This document shows positions 5,250-60,789 of a DNA stretch of 64,000 nucleotides, piece by piece. The stretch spans positions 10,577,662 to 10,641,661 of the forward strand of contig OZ020252.1 of assembly GCA_963971285.1 (NCBI GenBank), given 5' to 3'. The notes beneath the pieces are model-generated. The model saw nothing but the letters and a program-made list of their open reading frames with translations. It made no database searches and was not told where the DNA came from. Both the position numbers and the translations under genes were made by a program. Positions within the stretch are counted from its first letter, which is position 1, and each line of letters opens with the position of its first letter. Source of the stretch: Astropecten irregularis (lineage: Eukaryota > Echinodermata > Asteroidea > Paxillosida > Astropectinidae).

Positions 5250-5793
5250 ACATATAATTATTAAAAACGAGATTCGTTTCTACTATAGTGCATATCAAAC
5301 TGCTACAGATACACAGATATTTCCTATGCACATAAGGCTTGCCAGGCGCGGTTCTACGGGGGCCCCCCCCCCAAAAAAAAAAAAAAATTCTAGCTCCCCC
5401 CCAAAAAGAAATGCAAGTGAAAAACAAAATTCTTAAAAATACTGGATTTTTTAAGCGCCAATTACATAAAAAAACGCCTTGTGTGGACTATATATGTGCA
5501 TGTTTTTCGACCCCTAATAAGAAATAGCAGAAGCGAGTGTTCGAAGAACAAAAAATATTGGCTATTCTAGCCCCCCAAAAATAATGGCTCTTCTAGCCCC
5601 CCCCCAAAAAAAATATATTGGCTCTAGAACCGCGCCTGAGGCTTGCCCTTTACCGAAGTAGATGACCACTACATACTCAGTGCTTGTTGAGTGCACATGA
5701 AAACAAATCATGTGCTGGCTCTGGTGGGATTCGAACCTACGACATCATGCTTACTAGTGTAGATGTCATACCGCTAGGCCACAGAGCTAACTG
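5250..5793 (-). mobile_element. tRNA-derived SINE, interrupted by a hAT-like MITE
   Basis: On the minus strand the head begins near 5790 with GCTCTGTGGCCTAGCGGTA (A-box-like) and has GGTTCGAATCC (B box) about 50 bases on, followed by CCAGAGC that pairs with the 5' GCTCTG. The anticodon region does not fold with a normal 7-base loop, so this is not a canonical tRNA gene. The body continues to GGGCAAGCCT, where the hAT-like element (5343-5638) is inserted, and resumes in the AT-rich tail beyond it. The 3' limit is approximate. Confidence 0.6.
5343..5638. mobile_element. hAT-like MITE with perfect 8-bp target duplication
   Basis: A 296-bp element with ends CAGGCGCGGTTCTA and TAGAACCGCGCCTG. The 8 bases AGGCTTGC flank it on both sides (5335-5342 and 5639-5646), the duplication length typical of hAT transposons. 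The subterminal regions are rich in TCTAGCCCCCC-type runs next to A-tracts. It splits a SINE, which dates it as the younger insertion. Confidence 0.9.
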
Positions 5794-27094: not shown

Positions 27095-27660
<566 letters not shown>

Positions 27661-40312: not shown

Positions 40313-40684
40313 TTAAGGTGAATGTACAATGTCAACAATTTCGGTGACATGTTGCCCCTGGGCAACACGACTTTAGGCCCTGTGTACACTAGCAACATTT
40401 TACCAACATGTTACCGAGATGTTGCTGCGACATGTTACCCAACTCGTTTTGGCTCTGTGTACACTAGCAACATTTGACCAACATGTTACCGAGATGTTGG
40501 TGTGACATGTTACCCAAACTCGTTTTGGCTCTGTATACACTAGCAACATTTGACCAACACGTTACCGAGATGTTGCTGCGACATGTTACCCAACTCGTTT
40601 TGCTCTGTGTACAGTGACAACATTTTCAGCAACAAGGTACCTGGACAACATGTTACCGAGATTGTTGACAGTGTACACTCTTAA
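40313..40684. mobile_element. TTAA-flanked MITE with an internal 76-bp tandem repeat
   Basis: TTAA at 40313-40316 and 40681-40684. The ends are inverted: TGTCAACAATTTCGGTGACA at the left against the complement of ACCGAGATTGTTGACA at the right. Inside, 40379-40607 is three units of about 76 bp beginning CTGTGTACACTAGCAACATT and holding ACCAACATGTTACCGAGATG. Each unit repeats the ACATGTTACC word of the TIR. Confidence 0.75.
40379..40607. repeat. 76-bp minisatellite (three units)
   Basis: Units begin at 40379, 40454 and 40531, with a partial fourth at 40605; they differ at a handful of positions each. Confidence 0.85.
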
Positions 40685-49231: not shown

Positions 49232-49475
49232 AATAATGAATGTTGTCAGGTTGCAGCATTACCGCGATTATCGATGAAATGCTCCTTGATATATGGCGGT
49301 ATGTGCGTGGTTTCATGGCTTCTGACTGCCAAATGAACAAAGATAATTGACTGTTAGGGACACCACCAACGTAGGGCTGGATAGCTCAGTTGTTAGAGCG
49401 CCATAAAGTATTCAGGAAGTCGCCGGTTCGAATGCCGCTTCAGTCAATTAGTCTTTGTTCACCTTTCAATGACTA
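49232..49475 (+). mobile_element. tRNA-derived SINE S1, copy 4
   Basis: Plus strand. Contains GGTTGCAGCATTACCGCG, TTTCATGGCTTCTGACTGCC and the tRNA-like part 49374-49446: GGGCTGG acceptor, GATAGCTCAGTTGTTAGAGC (A box with a perfect GCTC/GAGC D stem) and GGTTCGAATGCC (B box, one change). The anticodon stem is poorly paired, so it is a SINE head, not a tRNA gene. Confidence 0.78.
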
Positions 49476-50490
49476 TAATGACTTGTAACTTGTATCTACA
49501 TATAATCAAGTTTGATTTACTTTGTATGATCATCCTATGGATATGAATGATCACCCCATGATTTTGCAATGAAAAAATAAGTCTTCGTTAAGTTGATTTG
49601 ATAATTTACAAAATGGCGCCAGACAGATTATGTGTTTTCGCCCATTACAGCCAAATGTGCATCATCCAAATTGATTTACTGCTCCAGTATTTGCCGTCAT
49701 TGTGTAACCTTCAAGTTCCATCAAGGTCTTATTTTGCAACCTTTTTCAAAAACCCATTTCTTACATTAATCCTTCAAAATATAACCTTCATCATTCAAAT
49801 GTATTTTCAGCACACATTAAATACTACGAAGAACGGTACAGTGTGTGATATTTTAATTTCACTGAAGTAAAACGAGCTTAACTACTGACAAAGGATTCGG
49901 ATTTATATAAAAGCCTGCGAAATGATTGTAGTGGAATATCCAGGTGAACATTAATTGAAATGGTATATACACTCAAGCATCGGCATTCGGCAGAGCAGAT
50001 ATAGAATCACTTTGTATGATGTCCTATATGAACAGCATATGGGCATACAACGATAAGAATCATGTAGGAGTGTTTAATGACAAAGTATGACACGGCAAAC
50101 ATGAACCTTAAAAATAATATTCTTGATGTGTAGTGGCCTTCATCTGACCTGCTTGTTCGGCGAACAATGACAGGAATAGAAAGCAAGTTGCCGGCCCCAC
50201 GCTGCAATTGAGTACCCCAGGTCCGAATGAAATCGGATACCAAGGGAAATTGAAAGCTGGGCAATGCGCAGCATTTTTAGAAAATGAGAAGAAAGCAACC
50301 ACAAAAATAATAACCTTAGGATCGAGTACGCCGAAGGTAGCACGTGTCTTTAGTATTGACGTCAAACTTAACATAAATCGCATATTAAATCGTATTTCAG
50401 CATTTTGTTTTTATTCAATAAAATTTTTAAAAAGAAAGTCTACATAAGCATTAAATTGTTTAAGATGCGGCAGTTGGAATTTTAAAATCA
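49476..50490. other. Region downstream of the LINE 3' end
   Basis: Overlapping ORFs on both strands at 50.0-50.4 kb have no recognised motif. The stretch from 49880 to 50490 was checked for a second LINE and none was found. Confidence 0.35.
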
Positions 50491-50517
50491 TATAAATAAT
50501 AATAATAATAAAGATTT

Positions 50518-50559
50518 ATAAAGCGCAACAATTATTTAAATATATTCTATTGCGCTTTA
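50518..50559 (-). other. LINE 3'-UTR stem-loop
   Basis: TAAAGCGCAA and TTGCGCTTTA are exactly inverted around a 22-base AT-rich loop, directly before the TTA-repeat tail. LINEs of the CR1/L2 type have 3' stem-loops and microsatellite tails recognised by their reverse transcriptase, so this is probably the template recognition site. Confidence 0.7.
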
Positions 50560-50573
50560 AGAGCTCATAGAAG

Positions 50574-53500
50574 CTAGTTAATGCTATTGAACAAATGAGA
50601 TTTCAGTTTAGATTTGAAACTTGCGAGAGAAGGGGCTTTCCTTATATCAAGTGGTAATACATTCCATAACCTGGGGGCTGCACACAAAAATGACCTATCT
50701 CCAAGAGTAACTTTTGTTCTATATGAGGGTATTTGTAGTGTAAATTTGTCATGTCTGCTACGTAAGTTATGACCATGTGATTCAGATTTTAGATTCAGTA
50801 GTTCAATTATGTAATTTGGGGCTTGACCATTCAGTGCTTTGTAAATTATCATTAGTATTTTGAAAGTGATTCTTTGTCGAACGGGTAACCAATGTAGTTC
50901 CTTAAGGAGAGGGGTGACTGAAGAGAACTTGGGGAGATTATAGATAAGTCGTGCACATGTATTTTGGACCCTTTGAAGCTTGGAAATTTGTGCATCTGGC
51001 AGCCCATACAGTAGGCTGTTACAGTAGTCTAATTTGCTAGTGACACACGCATGAATGACTGTTTTCATTGTATCTTTATCAAAGTATTTACGAATACGTC
51101 TCAAGTTATATATCATGAAATAGGCTGATTTGCAAGTACTAGTTATATGGGCTTCCATATTTAGGTTGGTATCAAATAAAACACCTAGGTTCCTAACAGT
51201 ATCAGATGGAGTTATAACACAGTCGCCTACTGAAATATCCCGTGCCCTGAATTTTGAAACCTGACGTGGAGTACCAATGGCCAAGAGTTCAGTTTTCCTA
51301 TCATTTAACTTCAGTTTGTTTTGTAACATCCAGGTCCTAATATAACTAATACATGTTTCCAGAAGTGAAATACAATCATTTTCATTTGGTGAACCAGGAC
51401 AGAACGAAAGATACAATTGTGTGTCGTCTGCATAGCAGTGACAGTTGATACCCGGAAACTTATTTTGGATATTTGTCAGGAGACGACTCGTGTATAATGT
51501 AAACAACAAAGGGCCGAGACGTGACCCTTGAGGAACACCGAAGGGCACCCTGAATTCCTCCGAGACAATGTCATCGATTTCAATTATCTGCTTTCTGTCA
51601 GACAAGTAGGATTCAATCCAATCTAGAATATTGCCACTAATCCAGAAATGGCTTTTCAAGGTTTTTAACAAATTCAAATGATCTATCGTATCGAAAGCAC
51701 TGCTCATATCAAGTAAAAGGAGCAGGGTAATCTTCTGATTGTCCATTGACATAAGAAGATCATTTTTGATTCTGAGCAATGTTGTTTCCGTACTATGAAA
51801 TTTTCGGTATGCAGATTGATTGAATGGTAACAATGAGTTTGATTCAAGGTGCTCTATGATTTGTTGGGTAGCAGCGCCTTCTACTAACTTAGAAATATAT
51901 CTCAGATTGCTGACGGGTCTAAGATTAGTGAATTCTGATTCAAGACCAGGTTTTTTCAGTAATGGTTTTACTAAAGCAACCTTCCACAGTGCAGGGAACT
52001 GCCCCGTTGACATGGATAGGTTTATTAAAGAGGTGATAATAGGTGTCAATACATCAAGGCATTGTAACAACAACTTGGTGGGTAATGGGTCCAGAGGACA
52101 AGACTTTTTACTAAGGTTGGATATCAATTCAACAACATTTCGTTGTGATAGCAATTTAAAATTAGTTAGCATTTCATTTTGTGATTTTTCTGGAGCTTCA
52201 TCACTGATCGGTGTGTCTATGTTACTGAGTTTTGAATCAATGTCACTGTGAATTTTCTGCACTTTATCAATGAAAAATTTCCCTAAGTTGTTGACAAACT
52301 CTTGTGTACTGACATTACAAGGTATAGTGGGCTGTTTATTTGACATACTAAGCAGCCCCTTCACAATATTGAACACTGCTTTAGCATCATCTTTATGTTC
52401 AGAGACTAGACCTTTCAGGTGAATTGTTCGTGCGTTATGCAATGAGAAAGAGTATGAGTTTCGAGCTGACTTAAAATCTTCCCAGTCTTTGTCTGTTCTC
52501 GATTTTAACCAACGTTTCTCTGCTTTTCGCTTTTTTCTTTTATCTTCCAATAGACCATCGGTCCACCATGGCACTCTAGGGCGTAAGACAACAGTTTTTG
52601 TGATTTTGGGAGCATGTTTGTCTAAGATGTCACTGAGAGTTGTGTTATATGATATTGCTAAATCAGTAACATCCTCAGGTGTTTCTTTTATACACAGACA
52701 ACTCTCACTGATGTCTCTTTGTAACAGCTCAACGTTGACAGTAGAAATCTTTCGAAAAGATATTTGTTTGACAGGTAGATGGGGTTTTCTTGAATTTAGA
52801 TTACACATTATAGGTATGTGATCTGAGATAAGCGATGGGTGTGCCCATGGTCTTCCGATGATAATATTTTCATCAGATTCTCGTCTAATTATCAAATCAA
52901 GAGTATGGCCGTGAGAATGTGTAGAAAAATTAACTAACTGTGAACAGCACAAAGACTCAAGAAGGTTTAGGAAGGATTGCGAATCTCTACTTATAGTATC
53001 AACATGTATGTTAAGATCGCCAACAATTAATAAAGGGATGCGAGACAGTAAATGGTTTTGAATGAAATCATTGAATTCAGATATGAAAGAAGCTACAGTT
53101 ACTGGGTGTAATTCTGAGTAGGGTGGTCTGTACATATTGATTAAGCACAATTGATAGTTTTTATATGTAATTTGGTACTCTGCATACTCGAAAGAGTTCA
53201 TCTCACCAGCTGCAGCTTGCAGAACGTTGAAAGTTTCCCTGTAGACAAGTCCAGTTCCCCCACCACGGCGGCTGCTTCGAGGATGATGAATGAACTTATA
53301 TCCAGACGGGATAAATTCCTGTAGAACTGTCGAGTCACTATCTGTCAGCCATGTTTCAGTCATTGAAACTATATCAGCATCGCTGTCGCAGATGAAATCA
53401 TTGATCAATGCTGTTTTGTTACGTACTGATCGCACATTCATTGAACATAGTAGAATGTTTGATGATGATTTAGAGGGCTTTGAAAACCTAAGGTAGTTTC

Positions 53501-53936
53501 TTCTCCGACCACCACGCCTGCCTCTCCTCGTTTTCTTCCGTTGAACTCCAATCTCGTTGATAACATTTCTAACGTTGGAAGGCAGTTGAAACTTTTTGTA
53601 TCTCCATTGAGATAGTTCCGCTTTAGAATACTGAATTCTCTGAATATTCTGCTGCTGATGATGATGATCGTCGCGATGAGTGGTAGAGGATGGTGGGGTG
53701 CCATCACGATTTTCAGGTCCGGGATTAGGATGCACATCTCCCGCATGAAGCAGTTCCAGTTGAAACGAAGAGCAACTATTCGGATGGTATGGAATTCTCC
53801 TTTGAAGAAACTGTTTTCTAACGAAGTGTTCATGTCTTGAAAATCCAAAAGTAGATTGTACGTTGCAGTGTACAGTCTTACATAGAGTACCATACAGGCA
53901 GAGAGTTAACAAAAGTCCAAGCTGAATAGGTCCCAT
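50574..53936 (-). CDS. LINE polyprotein: 2A-bearing N terminus, APE endonuclease, reverse transcriptase
   Basis: An intact 1120-codon ORF. Residues about 5-18 are hydrophobic (GLLLTLCLYGTL) and look like a signal peptide. Residues 62-74 are LLHAGDVHPNPGP, a 2A-like ribosome-skipping motif. Residues 133-150 are Arg/Lys-rich and may bind nucleic acid. The apurinic-type endonuclease spans about 160-380, with Asn167 (MNVRS), Glu194 (TETWL), GDLN (306-309) and SDH (371-373). The reverse transcriptase spans about 620-880: LLDMSSAFD (Asp743), GVPQGS (800-805) and YADD (835-838). The C terminus (SKLDYCNSLLYGLPDAQISK, then LWNVLP and LASFKSKLKSH) is typical of the CR1/L2 group. The protein nicks target DNA and copies LINE RNA by target-primed reverse transcription. 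All catalytic residues checked are present, so the copy may be young or still active. The first ATG was chosen because it alone puts the hydrophobic segment ahead of 2A. Confidence 0.95.
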   Translation of the reverse strand: MGPIQLGLLLTLCLYGTLCKTVHCNVQSTFGFSRHEHFVRKQFLQRRIPYHPNSCSSFQLELLHAGDVHPNPGPENRDGTPPSSTTHRDDHHHQQQNIQRIQYSKAELSQWRYKKFQLPSNVRNVINEIGVQRKKTRRGRRGGRRRNYLRFSKPSKSSSNILLCSMNVRSVRNKTALINDFICDSDADIVSMTETWLTDSDSTVLQEFIPSGYKFIHHPRSSRRGGGTGLVYRETFNVLQAAAGEMNSFEYAEYQITYKNYQLCLINMYRPPYSELHPVTVASFISEFNDFIQNHLLSRIPLLIVGDLNIHVDTISRDSQSFLNLLESLCCSQLVNFSTHSHGHTLDLIIRRESDENIIIGRPWAHPSLISDHIPIMCNLNSRKPHLPVKQISFRKISTVNVELLQRDISESCLCIKETPEDVTDLAISYNTTLSDILDKHAPKITKTVVLRPRVPWWTDGLLEDKRKKRKAEKRWLKSRTDKDWEDFKSARNSYSFSLHNARTIHLKGLVSEHKDDAKAVFNIVKGLLSMSNKQPTIPCNVSTQEFVNNLGKFFIDKVQKIHSDIDSKLSNIDTPISDEAPEKSQNEMLTNFKLLSQRNVVELISNLSKKSCPLDPLPTKLLLQCLDVLTPIITSLINLSMSTGQFPALWKVALVKPLLKKPGLESEFTNLRPVSNLRYISKLVEGAATQQIIEHLESNSLLPFNQSAYRKFHSTETTLLRIKNDLLMSMDNQKITLLLLLDMSSAFDTIDHLNLLKTLKSHFWISGNILDWIESYLSDRKQIIEIDDIVSEEFRVPFGVPQGSRLGPLLFTLYTSRLLTNIQNKFPGINCHCYADDTQLYLSFCPGSPNENDCISLLETCISYIRTWMLQNKLKLNDRKTELLAIGTPRQVSKFRARDISVGDCVITPSDTVRNLGVLFDTNLNMEAHITSTCKSAYFMIYNLRRIRKYFDKDTMKTVIHACVTSKLDYCNSLLYGLPDAQISKLQRVQNTCARLIYNLPKFSSVTPLLKELHWLPVRQRITFKILMIIYKALNGQAPNYIIELLNLKSESHGHNLRSRHDKFTLQIPSYRTKVTLGDRSFLCAAPRLWNVLPLDIRKAPSLASFKSKLKSHLFNSIN
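53715..53753 (-). other. 2A-like ribosome-skipping motif (codons 62-74)
   Basis: DVHPNPGP fits the D-V/I-E/x-x-N-P-G-P consensus, including the invariant NPG/P where the chain is released between Gly73 and Pro74. The upstream residues (SFQLELLHAG) are hydrophobic, as in known 2A sequences. It would separate a 73-residue leader from the enzyme part. Confidence 0.85.
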
Positions 53937-53960
53937 TGTGCTTGCTTTATAGTCCCAATT

Positions 53961-54290
53961 GAATCAAGATCACCCATGCATACAGTACATAGTAGAATAC
54001 TAACTCAACATAAAGCTATACACTAAGACTGGCTCCTTGTGTACAGAAGAATTTAAGCAGAATCCACAAAAATTGAACATCAAAATACAGCATGAGATCA
54101 AACAAATAATTATTCAAATTTGACCAGCAGTATCTAGGATACATATATTAAAGACTACTTACAACAAAAATTGATGAAACCAAGTATAAACAAGCAAGTA
54201 AGAGCTCTTTAGGAGAGCCAGCAAAAAGCATGTACATGCTTATGCGCTACAACCCAACAACAGATCTTAAAGGTATCTTAAAAAAATATC
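53961..54290. other. Probable LINE 5' UTR or flanking DNA
   Basis: No ORF and no repeat. The 5' boundary of the LINE could not be read. Confidence 0.35.
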
Positions 54291-54659
54291 TTAAAGGTAG
54301 TATCATACTTTGGCAGCACACCGAAACAGAAATACTCACATATTTACGTATAACTTACAAGGTATAAGGAATTTGATGGTAGCAACATACCGTTCAAATT
54401 GTTCTGCTTGAAATGCTGTATTTATCCAGAAAACAGTAAAACCAGTGACCAAATTATTTTTGATCTTTAAAAGATCAAAAATAAAAGAGAAAAGACTTAA
54501 GGAATACTGTCGCAATTTTTCACTGTTTTCTCAAAACGCTGGCACCGTTTGGGACTGAAATTTCGCAGATGACTGTTACTGTATCCCGCTTGATATTTTT
54601 TGCGCATGAATCTGTATTTTTTTTTGTGACAAAACCCAAATAATGATATTTATCTTTAA
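54291..54659 (-). mobile_element. TTAA MITE family A, copy 15
   Basis: TTAA at 54291-54294 and 54656-54659. The left end is GGTAGTATCATACTTTGGC and the right end is CCAAATAATGATATTTATC. The partial direct repeat TTAAAGGTATCTTAAAAAAA precedes it at 54267. Confidence 0.88.
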
Positions 54660-58192: not shown

Positions 58193-58398
58193 TAAAGTCA
58201 TTGGAAAGTAAACAAAGAAAAATTGACTGGGGCGGGATTCGATCCAGCGACCTCCTGAATACGGTACCGGCGCTCTTAATACCAACTGAGCTATCCAGCC
58301 CTACGTTGGTGGTGTCCCTAATAGTCAATTATCTTTGTTCGTCTGGCAGTCAGAAGCCATGAAACCACACACATACCGTTCTATCCCAAGGATCATTT
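58193..58398 (-). mobile_element. tRNA-derived SINE S1, copy 5
   Basis: The complement of GGGCTGGATAGCTCAGTTGG lies at about 58283-58302, and the B-box complement reads GGATTCGATCC (58236 on). The body runs through TGGTGGTGTCCC and GTCAGAAGCCATGAAACC, as in the other S1 copies. Confidence 0.78.
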
Positions 58399-59249: not shown

Positions 59250-59721
59250 GAATGCGATGGTGAAGGAATAATCATATAACACTCTGAAAATAGTTTCAAC
59301 TCAGATGAATCTTCAACAGGTAGACCGTTTCTGTTTCTGAATCAAACAGAAGACAAAACCTCATGCATGTCTATAGAATCAGAGAAGAGATTTCATAGTT
59401 ATTCGATCCAGGCCTTAAAATGTCCAGGGAGGTATTGGTGTCCACACCTCCGGACAAATGGTCCGTCTTAGACCAGGGCCGTATTAGAAATATGAAACTC
59501 TTAAAGAGAGGGATTTTGGAAGTCACATCTACTTATTCAGATTGAGAATGGCGATGGGCTGGGGACTCTGTCTAGATTGGCTGCACTCCCAGCGGAGGGA
59601 TGACCGATCAAATGCTACACTCATCGTGTGTAGCATTCTTATACACTCAGCAAAAGTTCACAAATACACACAAGATGCGCCTGGTTGTTAACTTCAAAGT
59701 GAAACGGGGCATATGGATGAA
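59250..59721. other. Unannotated spacer
   Basis: Nothing recognised. Confidence 0.3.
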
Positions 59722-60155
59722 GCAACAGCAGCAACAGCAGCAACAGCAGCAACAGGACTAACATGCAGAAGCAACAGTAGCAACAGCAACAACAGCAGCA
59801 ACATCATCTGTATCAGCAACAGCAACAGCAGCAAAACCATCACCAAAATCAGCAACAGCAGCAACAGCAACATCAGCTAACAGCTTGAGCTGAGCATCAG
59901 CAACAACAACAAGATAAGCAACAAGATCAGCAGCAGCAACATTAGCAACATGCAGAAGAAACAGTAGCAACTGCAACAACGTACAGCAGCAACATCATCA
60001 ACAACATCACCTGTATCAGCAACAGCAACATCGATCAGCAAAAGCAACAACATGCAGCAACAGCAACAGCAACAACAACAGCAGCAACAACAGCAGCAGC
60101 AACAACAACAACAACAACAGCAGCAACAGCAACAAAAACAGCAGCAACTGCAACA
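59722..60155. repeat. CAG/CAA trinucleotide array
   Basis: About 430 bp of CAGCAA and CAACAG triplets with scattered interruptions (AACATGCAGAAG, ATCATCTGTATCAGC). Blocks such as AACATGCAGAAGCAACAGTAG and ACATCATC..CTGTATCAGCAAC recur, so longer segments have also been duplicated. Frames across it contain stops, so no polyglutamine protein is claimed. Confidence 0.92.
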
Positions 60156-60789
60156 ATGATGAACTTGCGAAATATACAGAAGCGTCTCGAAAGCAGTATT
60201 ACTATAATTGGATTTAGTTTGGAAAATGTTTGGAAAATGTAAAAACACATTTCCTTCATTCGAGACTAAAGAGAAAAAATGTAGTGCGATTCAATTTGAA
60301 GACAATCCATATGTGGAACTGATTCCATGTTGTTCAATTGCAATTTTTATTAGGTCATTGATGTATTTTTGTAAAATTAAAATACACACAAACCCCAACA
60401 AATAGATCTGGTCATTTTTTAAACATCCCGATTGCATTATAATGGGAAACGACAAACCTATAAGTTATAATCGTGTAGTCATGCTGTCATATAAAAAAAA
60501 CCTGAAGGACTGTTGCGAGTCTAGGCCGGTCGCTCAGGCCGGTGTGTGAACCCAATTTAGGAAACAGGGCAAGAAATGGGAATTTTAAAATACACAATAG
60601 ATGTTTCCGAAACAATTATTAATTACAATTATAACTAACCTATGAAGTATGACGTCATAACTATAGATAGGTGGTACCATCTTGAAAATAAACTCACATA
60701 AGGCAGCAAAACCATCAGTCAAGGAAGCTGTCATGTTTGACATTATGCATTATAATTATGGGACATTCATATTGCGCAGCTACTACATG
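60156..60789. other. Unannotated spacer
   Basis: Nothing recognised. Confidence 0.3.

Follow-up and report, generated by a model that had tools for sequence, protein, structure and literature searches.

What does a hydrophobic, signal-like leader do in front of a 2A-like (StopGo) sequence when both precede the endonuclease and reverse transcriptase (EN-RT) of a long interspersed nuclear element (LINE)? The question is raised by a LINE in a 64,000-nucleotide stretch of the echinoderm Astropecten irregularis (assembly GCA_963971285.1, contig OZ020252.1, positions 10,577,662 to 10,641,661), referred to here as the window; coordinates are those of the window and all features of the element lie on the minus strand. 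The arrangement stands in a single open reading frame (ORF) and recurs across many families of the same genome, and the hydrophobicity of the leader is conserved without sequence identity. The best reading, in which our confidence is evenly balanced, is that a leader targeted to the endoplasmic reticulum (ER) is separated by StopGo from a cytosolic/nuclear EN-RT.

Leader, 2A-Like Core and Enzyme in One Frame

The sole long ORF of the element comprises 1120 codons (50574..53936, minus; ATG at 53936, stop ending at 50574), and its frame is open from 53963, upstream of this ATG, to 50574. The intact frame of the original prediction, which gave no strand, is thus found on the minus strand; a plus-strand reading of 50574-53936 was discarded because of its many stops. 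The start context is CACAATGG.

Residues 1-19 (MGPIQLGLLLTLCLYGTLC; 53880..53936) form the signal-like leader, as judged from Kyte-Doolittle and von Heijne scores. The 12-residue Kyte-Doolittle peak is 2.06 and the von Heijne score is 7.7 with the best cut after residue 19, which gives the segment the form of a signal peptide (an N-terminal hydrophobic core and a plausible cut site). A conserved, leucine-rich block with A-G at its end (residues 41-66, closing in RIPYHPNSCSSFQLELLHAG; 53739..53816) precedes the 2A/StopGo core DVHPNPGP (residues 67-74; 53715..53738), for which a break is predicted between Gly73 and Pro74. An APE-type endonuclease domain (PF03372, residues 165-373; 52818..53444; 35.3 bits, cut-off 24.5) and a reverse transcriptase (RT) domain (RVT_1, PF00078, residues 661-919; 51180..51956; 103.9 bits, cut-off 29.6) follow, in the order expected within one ORF of an APE-type retrotransposon without long terminal repeats (non-LTR). 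The translation also contains ISDH and YADD, which we take to be the endonuclease and RT motifs, respectively. The predicted succession of signal-like leader, 2A-like motif and EN-RT is therefore present as described, and Pfam returned no domain of the window protein before residue 165.

The core differs from the canonical StopGo core D(V/I)ExNPGP in having H, not E, at position 14. It matches, in a different sequence context, a natural variant with H at this position that is more than 95% active in a viral setting (Li et al., 2026, PMC12846837). Leucine-rich motifs that close in (A/S/C)G are found ahead of a D at position 12 (PMC12846837), and the window reads LELLHAG-DVHPNPGP.

Recurrence of the Arrangement in the Genome

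A genome-wide scan (475.7 Mb) with the DNA pattern for GD(V/I)xxNPGP yields 116 places, and its reversed form yields none. One hundred of these places were listed and examined one by one (26 in loci retrieved earlier, 74 in further loci), and at least 58 are followed within 2.5 kb by an endonuclease match of the same strand, a lower bound given that only matches judged to lie near a motif were counted and 150 candidates were scored per search. Single-linkage clustering of the 85 distinct leader rows at 50% identity gives 34 clusters. In 27 of them the leader is complete, with a stop above and an ATG that precedes the motif by at least 40 residues. Position 14 is not E in 49 of the 85 rows. A, S or C stands before the G in 23 of the 27 cluster representatives. 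The residues D, N, P, G and P are invariant in alignment A1, in part by construction since its 10 leaders were chosen for the motif.

A leader was counted as hydrophobic when the Kyte-Doolittle values of some 12-residue stretch within the first 35 residues from the ATG averaged 2.0 or more. With the first ATG this holds for 18 of the 27 clusters against 2.98 expected from shuffles (none of 200000 draws reached 18), and with the best ATG for 21 of 27 against 4.7 expected. After the 2A of the window protein, neither the 16 Met-started windows nor any of the 1010 windows of 35 residues reach the threshold. The possibility that the leader is an accident of the window copy was dropped on account of this recurrence, and the layout, which had been called unusual, proves to be common in this genome.

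It is the property that appears to be kept rather than the sequence. Pairwise identity over residues 1-28 of 14 short leaders (69-89 residues) has a median of 0.18, close to the 0.14 of shuffled sequences, and yet hydrophobicity is retained; the 36-residue block ending in NPGP reaches 0.47. Between the hydrophobic core and the conserved block these leaders differ in both sequence and length. In 22 leader starts, chosen by hand and without a control, a purine is found at -3 in 21 and G at +4 in 15; for eight of these starts the frame has an earlier ATG. Ratios of non-synonymous to synonymous change (dN/dS) were obtained for the leaders of 18 pairs and amount to 0.27 in L071/L105 and 0.30 in L079/L100, both of which are long-leader pairs.

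Short and Long Leaders

Across the 21 related families with a leader, the identity of position 14 is associated with leader length (Fisher p 0.003): it is N, H, D or S in 12 of 14 short-leader families and E in 6 of 7 long-leader families, whose leaders measure 116-231 residues. The long leaders also open signal-like (e.g., MAVSQQAFCWALILIVHVSVC), and some carry Cys and N-glycosylation sequons. Leaders of about 160 residues with Cys occur in L071, L079, L100, L105, L104, L121, L138, and L004, all with E at position 14 except L004 (H); a PCGxC-type cysteine motif follows several of them.

Counted from where the best 12-residue window ends to the Gly of the predicted break, the distance is 54 residues in the window LINE and 50-75 (median 58) in the 14 short leaders. 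A spacing like that of XBP1u was considered as a general rule and discarded, as the long leaders do not fit it. In L124 (G000 C21:8924447-8924992) the hydrophobic stretch abuts the 2A (MTTILGIVILLLMPLTLLSLICGDVHPNPGP), with 30 residues from ATG to Gly, and its cluster lies outside the 27 by the 40-residue rule; L119 shares the end of L124 and has a different start.

Relatives without the Standard Motif

The fronts of 12 further open frames (1004-1300 residues), chosen from endonuclease matches, were examined. Three carry the variant MDI(S/A)xNPGP, and the residues ahead of it also differ (..D(I/V)T(V/I)(F/C)M..). The start is hydrophobic in L158, L160 lacks any ATG upstream of the M of the variant motif itself, and L163 has no stop in the stretch examined. 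The other nine lack NPGP; four of them (L164, L165, L166, and L169) have a hydrophobic start, possibly as membrane-anchored EN-RTs, and five (L159, L161, L162, L167, and L168) have neither feature. Related copies lacking the NPGP or the hydrophobic stretch had been named in advance as evidence against the predicted layout. In this comparison both features occur together in 21 of 27 clusters (18 with the first ATG); of the 12 extra frames 3 have the variant NPGP, 4 are hydrophobic only and 5 have neither.

A Proposed ER-Targeted Leader Parted from the Enzyme

Under the favoured reading one ORF would give two products, split by StopGo between Gly73 and Pro74. The first would be an ER-targeted leader of 73 residues, made up of a signal peptide and a short Cys-containing peptide. 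The second would be a cytosolic/nuclear EN-RT of 1047 residues with a basic box near its front; the candidate is the RG-rich RKKTRRGRRGGRRRN (residues 133-147; 53496..53540), and several relatives have boxes that resemble it by eye. A ribosome pause at the 2A would coincide with the emergence of the hydrophobic core from the exit tunnel, for with 54 residues between core and Gly73 (50-75 in the short families) the core is proposed to lie outside the tunnel at that moment. The signal recognition particle (SRP) could then bind the exposed core during the pause, and the leader, perhaps together with the paused ribosome and the LINE RNA, would travel to the ER. The enzyme would begin at Pro74 as a separate cytosolic chain, kept outside the ER by skipping, whereas any unskipped fraction would enter it, so that partial skipping would result in dual targeting.

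A number of observations weigh against this reading. As to the leaders themselves, 7 of the 34 clusters have no complete leader by the 40-residue rule, and six of the 27 that do (L082, L084, L088, L095, L107, and L129) stay below the hydrophobicity threshold even with the best ATG, although L088 and L107 are only just under it. Neither K nor R precedes the hydrophobic core of the window leader, and von Heijne scores are low in the hydrophobic leaders of L067 (-1.9), L116 (2.1), and L125 (1.6); the matrix behind these scores was checked on 8 human proteins only. The shuffle test overstates independence because the families share ancestry, and core and Gly are 92-212 residues apart in the long-leader families. 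Constraint is weaker in most pairs: dN/dS is 0.44 for L076/L123, 0.29-0.64 in five deep pairs and 0.54-0.84 in eight close pairs, and it is undefined for two pairs without synonymous change. Lastly, the hydrophobic start of four of the nine relatives lacking NPGP indicates that a 2A is not always needed with such a start. The link between leader and 2A is weakened by these relatives, and they speak against the simple view that a 2A is there to stop the leader from ruining the enzyme.

A broader proposal goes beyond a parted leader and is put forward tentatively, as possible but well short of the favoured reading in probability. In many 2A LINEs of this genome an SRP-recruiting leader and a StopGo pause may form a conserved module, the short class having an XBP1u-like spacing, which would bring the translating LINE RNA to the ER or outer nuclear membrane and free the enzyme there, membrane targeting being a normal step of the life cycle. 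If most LINE 2As follow a selected ER-targeting leader, the job of the 2A would be to part leader from enzyme; LINE biology would then gain a membrane step. The link between leader length and position 14 would offer a natural series for the tuning of StopGo.

Other Explanations

The enzyme itself might be targeted twice, partial skipping leaving an unskipped EN-RT as a functional second pool in the secretory pathway. The absence of Glu14 from 12 of 14 short leaders, set against its presence in 6 of 7 long ones, could lower skipping, and the activity of an E14Q mutant is cited as 56% or 26% (PMC12846837). With H at position 14, on the other hand, activity is nearly complete in the published viral context (PMC12846837), and an EN-RT in the ER lumen would be of no evident use to a LINE. 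The original prediction pointed to sea-urchin proteins; the published precedent, in NOD-like receptor (NLR) leaders, is one in which the 2A itself is the signal (PMC4981915), whereas the two lie about 54 residues apart here. Given this separation, it is in our judgement no less likely that the leader alone is targeted than that the enzyme is targeted twice, and we consider the latter unlikely.

Equally doubtful is that the leader is the point of the arrangement, a small secreted or luminal peptide made beside the enzyme with the 2A as a mere separator. Such a role would suit a signal-like start followed by a Cys-bearing remainder, the length of the 116-231-residue leaders with their occasional Cys and sequons, and the dN/dS of 0.27-0.30 in 2 of the 18 pairs. 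It accords poorly with the weaker constraint in most other pairs, with the variable sequence and length of the short leaders in the part that separates core from conserved block, and with the lack of a Pfam domain ahead of the endonuclease (in the window protein, the one searched).

It is less probable still that the 2A is a relic, inactive wherever position 14 is not E, and that the ORF encodes one protein with an N-terminal membrane anchor. The 49 rows without E would all be affected; for the residues seen here, published tests cover H and, as a mutation, Q, and N is not described in the available sections of that source (PMC12846837). The four relatives with a hydrophobic start and no NPGP point the same way. 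Against decay stand the invariant D, N, P, G, and P of the motif-chosen leaders in A1, the 116 motif places with none in the reversed control, and the retention of the upstream context of active 2As.

Very improbable, finally, is a hydrophobic stretch without any targeting role, arising by chance or as part of the tunnel context of the 2A, since the plain n-region of the window leader and the more than 30 native residues that full StopGo activity requires in foot-and-mouth disease virus (PMC12846837) are outweighed by a core that ends 54 residues upstream, outside that context, by the 18 of 27 clusters where shuffling gives about 3, and by relatives that keep the stretch without an NPGP.

The Element, Its Copies and the Rest of the Window

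The whole LINE measures 3773 bp (50485..54257), its 5' end being TTGGGTTGTAGCGC and its 3' end a (TTA)n tail; the ends are identical in the full-length copies L089 and L090. The 5' untranslated region (53937..54257, 321 bases) contains no further same-strand ORF of 80 or more amino acids. A PDB sequence search with the window protein returned only two R2 retrotransposon proteins, covering part of the RT region. The single ORF, the tail and general background suggest a place in the L2/CR1 group of the jockey superfamily.

L089 is 99.79% and L090 99.76% identical to the window LINE (3773/3774 bp compared), the latter with one gap and a broken frame, and a third copy, L091, is 5'-truncated and begins at window 53645. 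Dispersed copies with a common 3' end, one of them 5'-truncated, and a simple-repeat tail are as expected of a LINE. The flanks of the window copy, L089 and L090 differ and have only short pieces in common, which marks them as separate insertions. The search for near-identical copies thereby supports the suggestion that the copy is young, and it looks like a full-length, single-ORF, recently mobile element. No obvious target-site duplication was seen by eye in the flanks, which were not searched systematically.

The largest shared flank pieces lie in the 5' flanks of L090 and the window copy, which match over 45 bp in inverted (89%) and 21 bp in direct orientation (95%), so the two copies may adjoin the same repeat. 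These matches may stem from a dispersed repeat just beyond the 5' end of the element (54283-54400; 86-89% identity), the sole part fitted by 35 of the 40 genome matches scored. Elsewhere the window holds three tandem arrays (a hexamer repeated 32 times at 98%, 27342-27533, a 75-bp unit repeated 3.4 times, 40372-40625, and a long imperfect AGC/AGCAAC tract, 59721-60156) and three tRNA-family matches barely above the Rfam cut-off (5716-5788, 49375-49446, and 58224-58300), perhaps pieces of tRNA-derived short interspersed nuclear elements.

Comparison with Known Systems

Closest in kind are APE-type LINEs that join an APE endonuclease and RT with a 2A-like sequence. Odon et al. reportedly described such sequences in 2013 in the L2, CR1, Crack, and Rex1 clades, and are said to have linked the 2A to single-ORF elements. 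The present LINEs differ from these in that a signal-like leader stands ahead of the 2A in most clusters whose start is complete, and position 14 is often N or H. The presence of 2As in APE-type non-LTR retrotransposons is also cited as known in a sea-urchin study, where the viral and non-LTR 2As outlined are at internal sites (PMC4981915). A paper on Jockey ORF1 refers to single ORFs and to an esterase for which a membrane role has been suggested; its available sections mention neither a signal peptide nor the term hydrophobic (PMC4120745). A literature search that did not extend to the 2013 study turned up no description of a signal leader ahead of the 2A in a LINE, and the novelty of the arrangement is accordingly provisional.

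XBP1u, which is not known to have a StopGo sequence, differs in having a C-terminal arrest peptide and an internal hydrophobic region. The likeness is one of layout only: its hydrophobic segment lies about 52 residues before the pause site (PMC6624018), against 54 in the window, provided that the 2A pauses. Viral StopGo/2A sequences share the D-V-x-x-N-P-G-P core and a leucine-rich context ending in A-G; the H that replaces E at position 14 in the window is a rare variant, active elsewhere (PMC12846837).

Sea-urchin NLR leaders resemble the window leader in uniting an N-terminal hydrophobic signal and StopGo. There, a 26-residue 2A doubles as the signal of an immune receptor, and the product made without skipping is directed into the exocytic pathway (Roulston et al., 2016, PMC4981915). 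In the window the leader has 73 residues, signal and 2A are 54 residues apart instead of overlapping, and the downstream protein is a LINE enzyme; it is L124, with its abutting hydrophobic stretch, that resembles the sea-urchin form.

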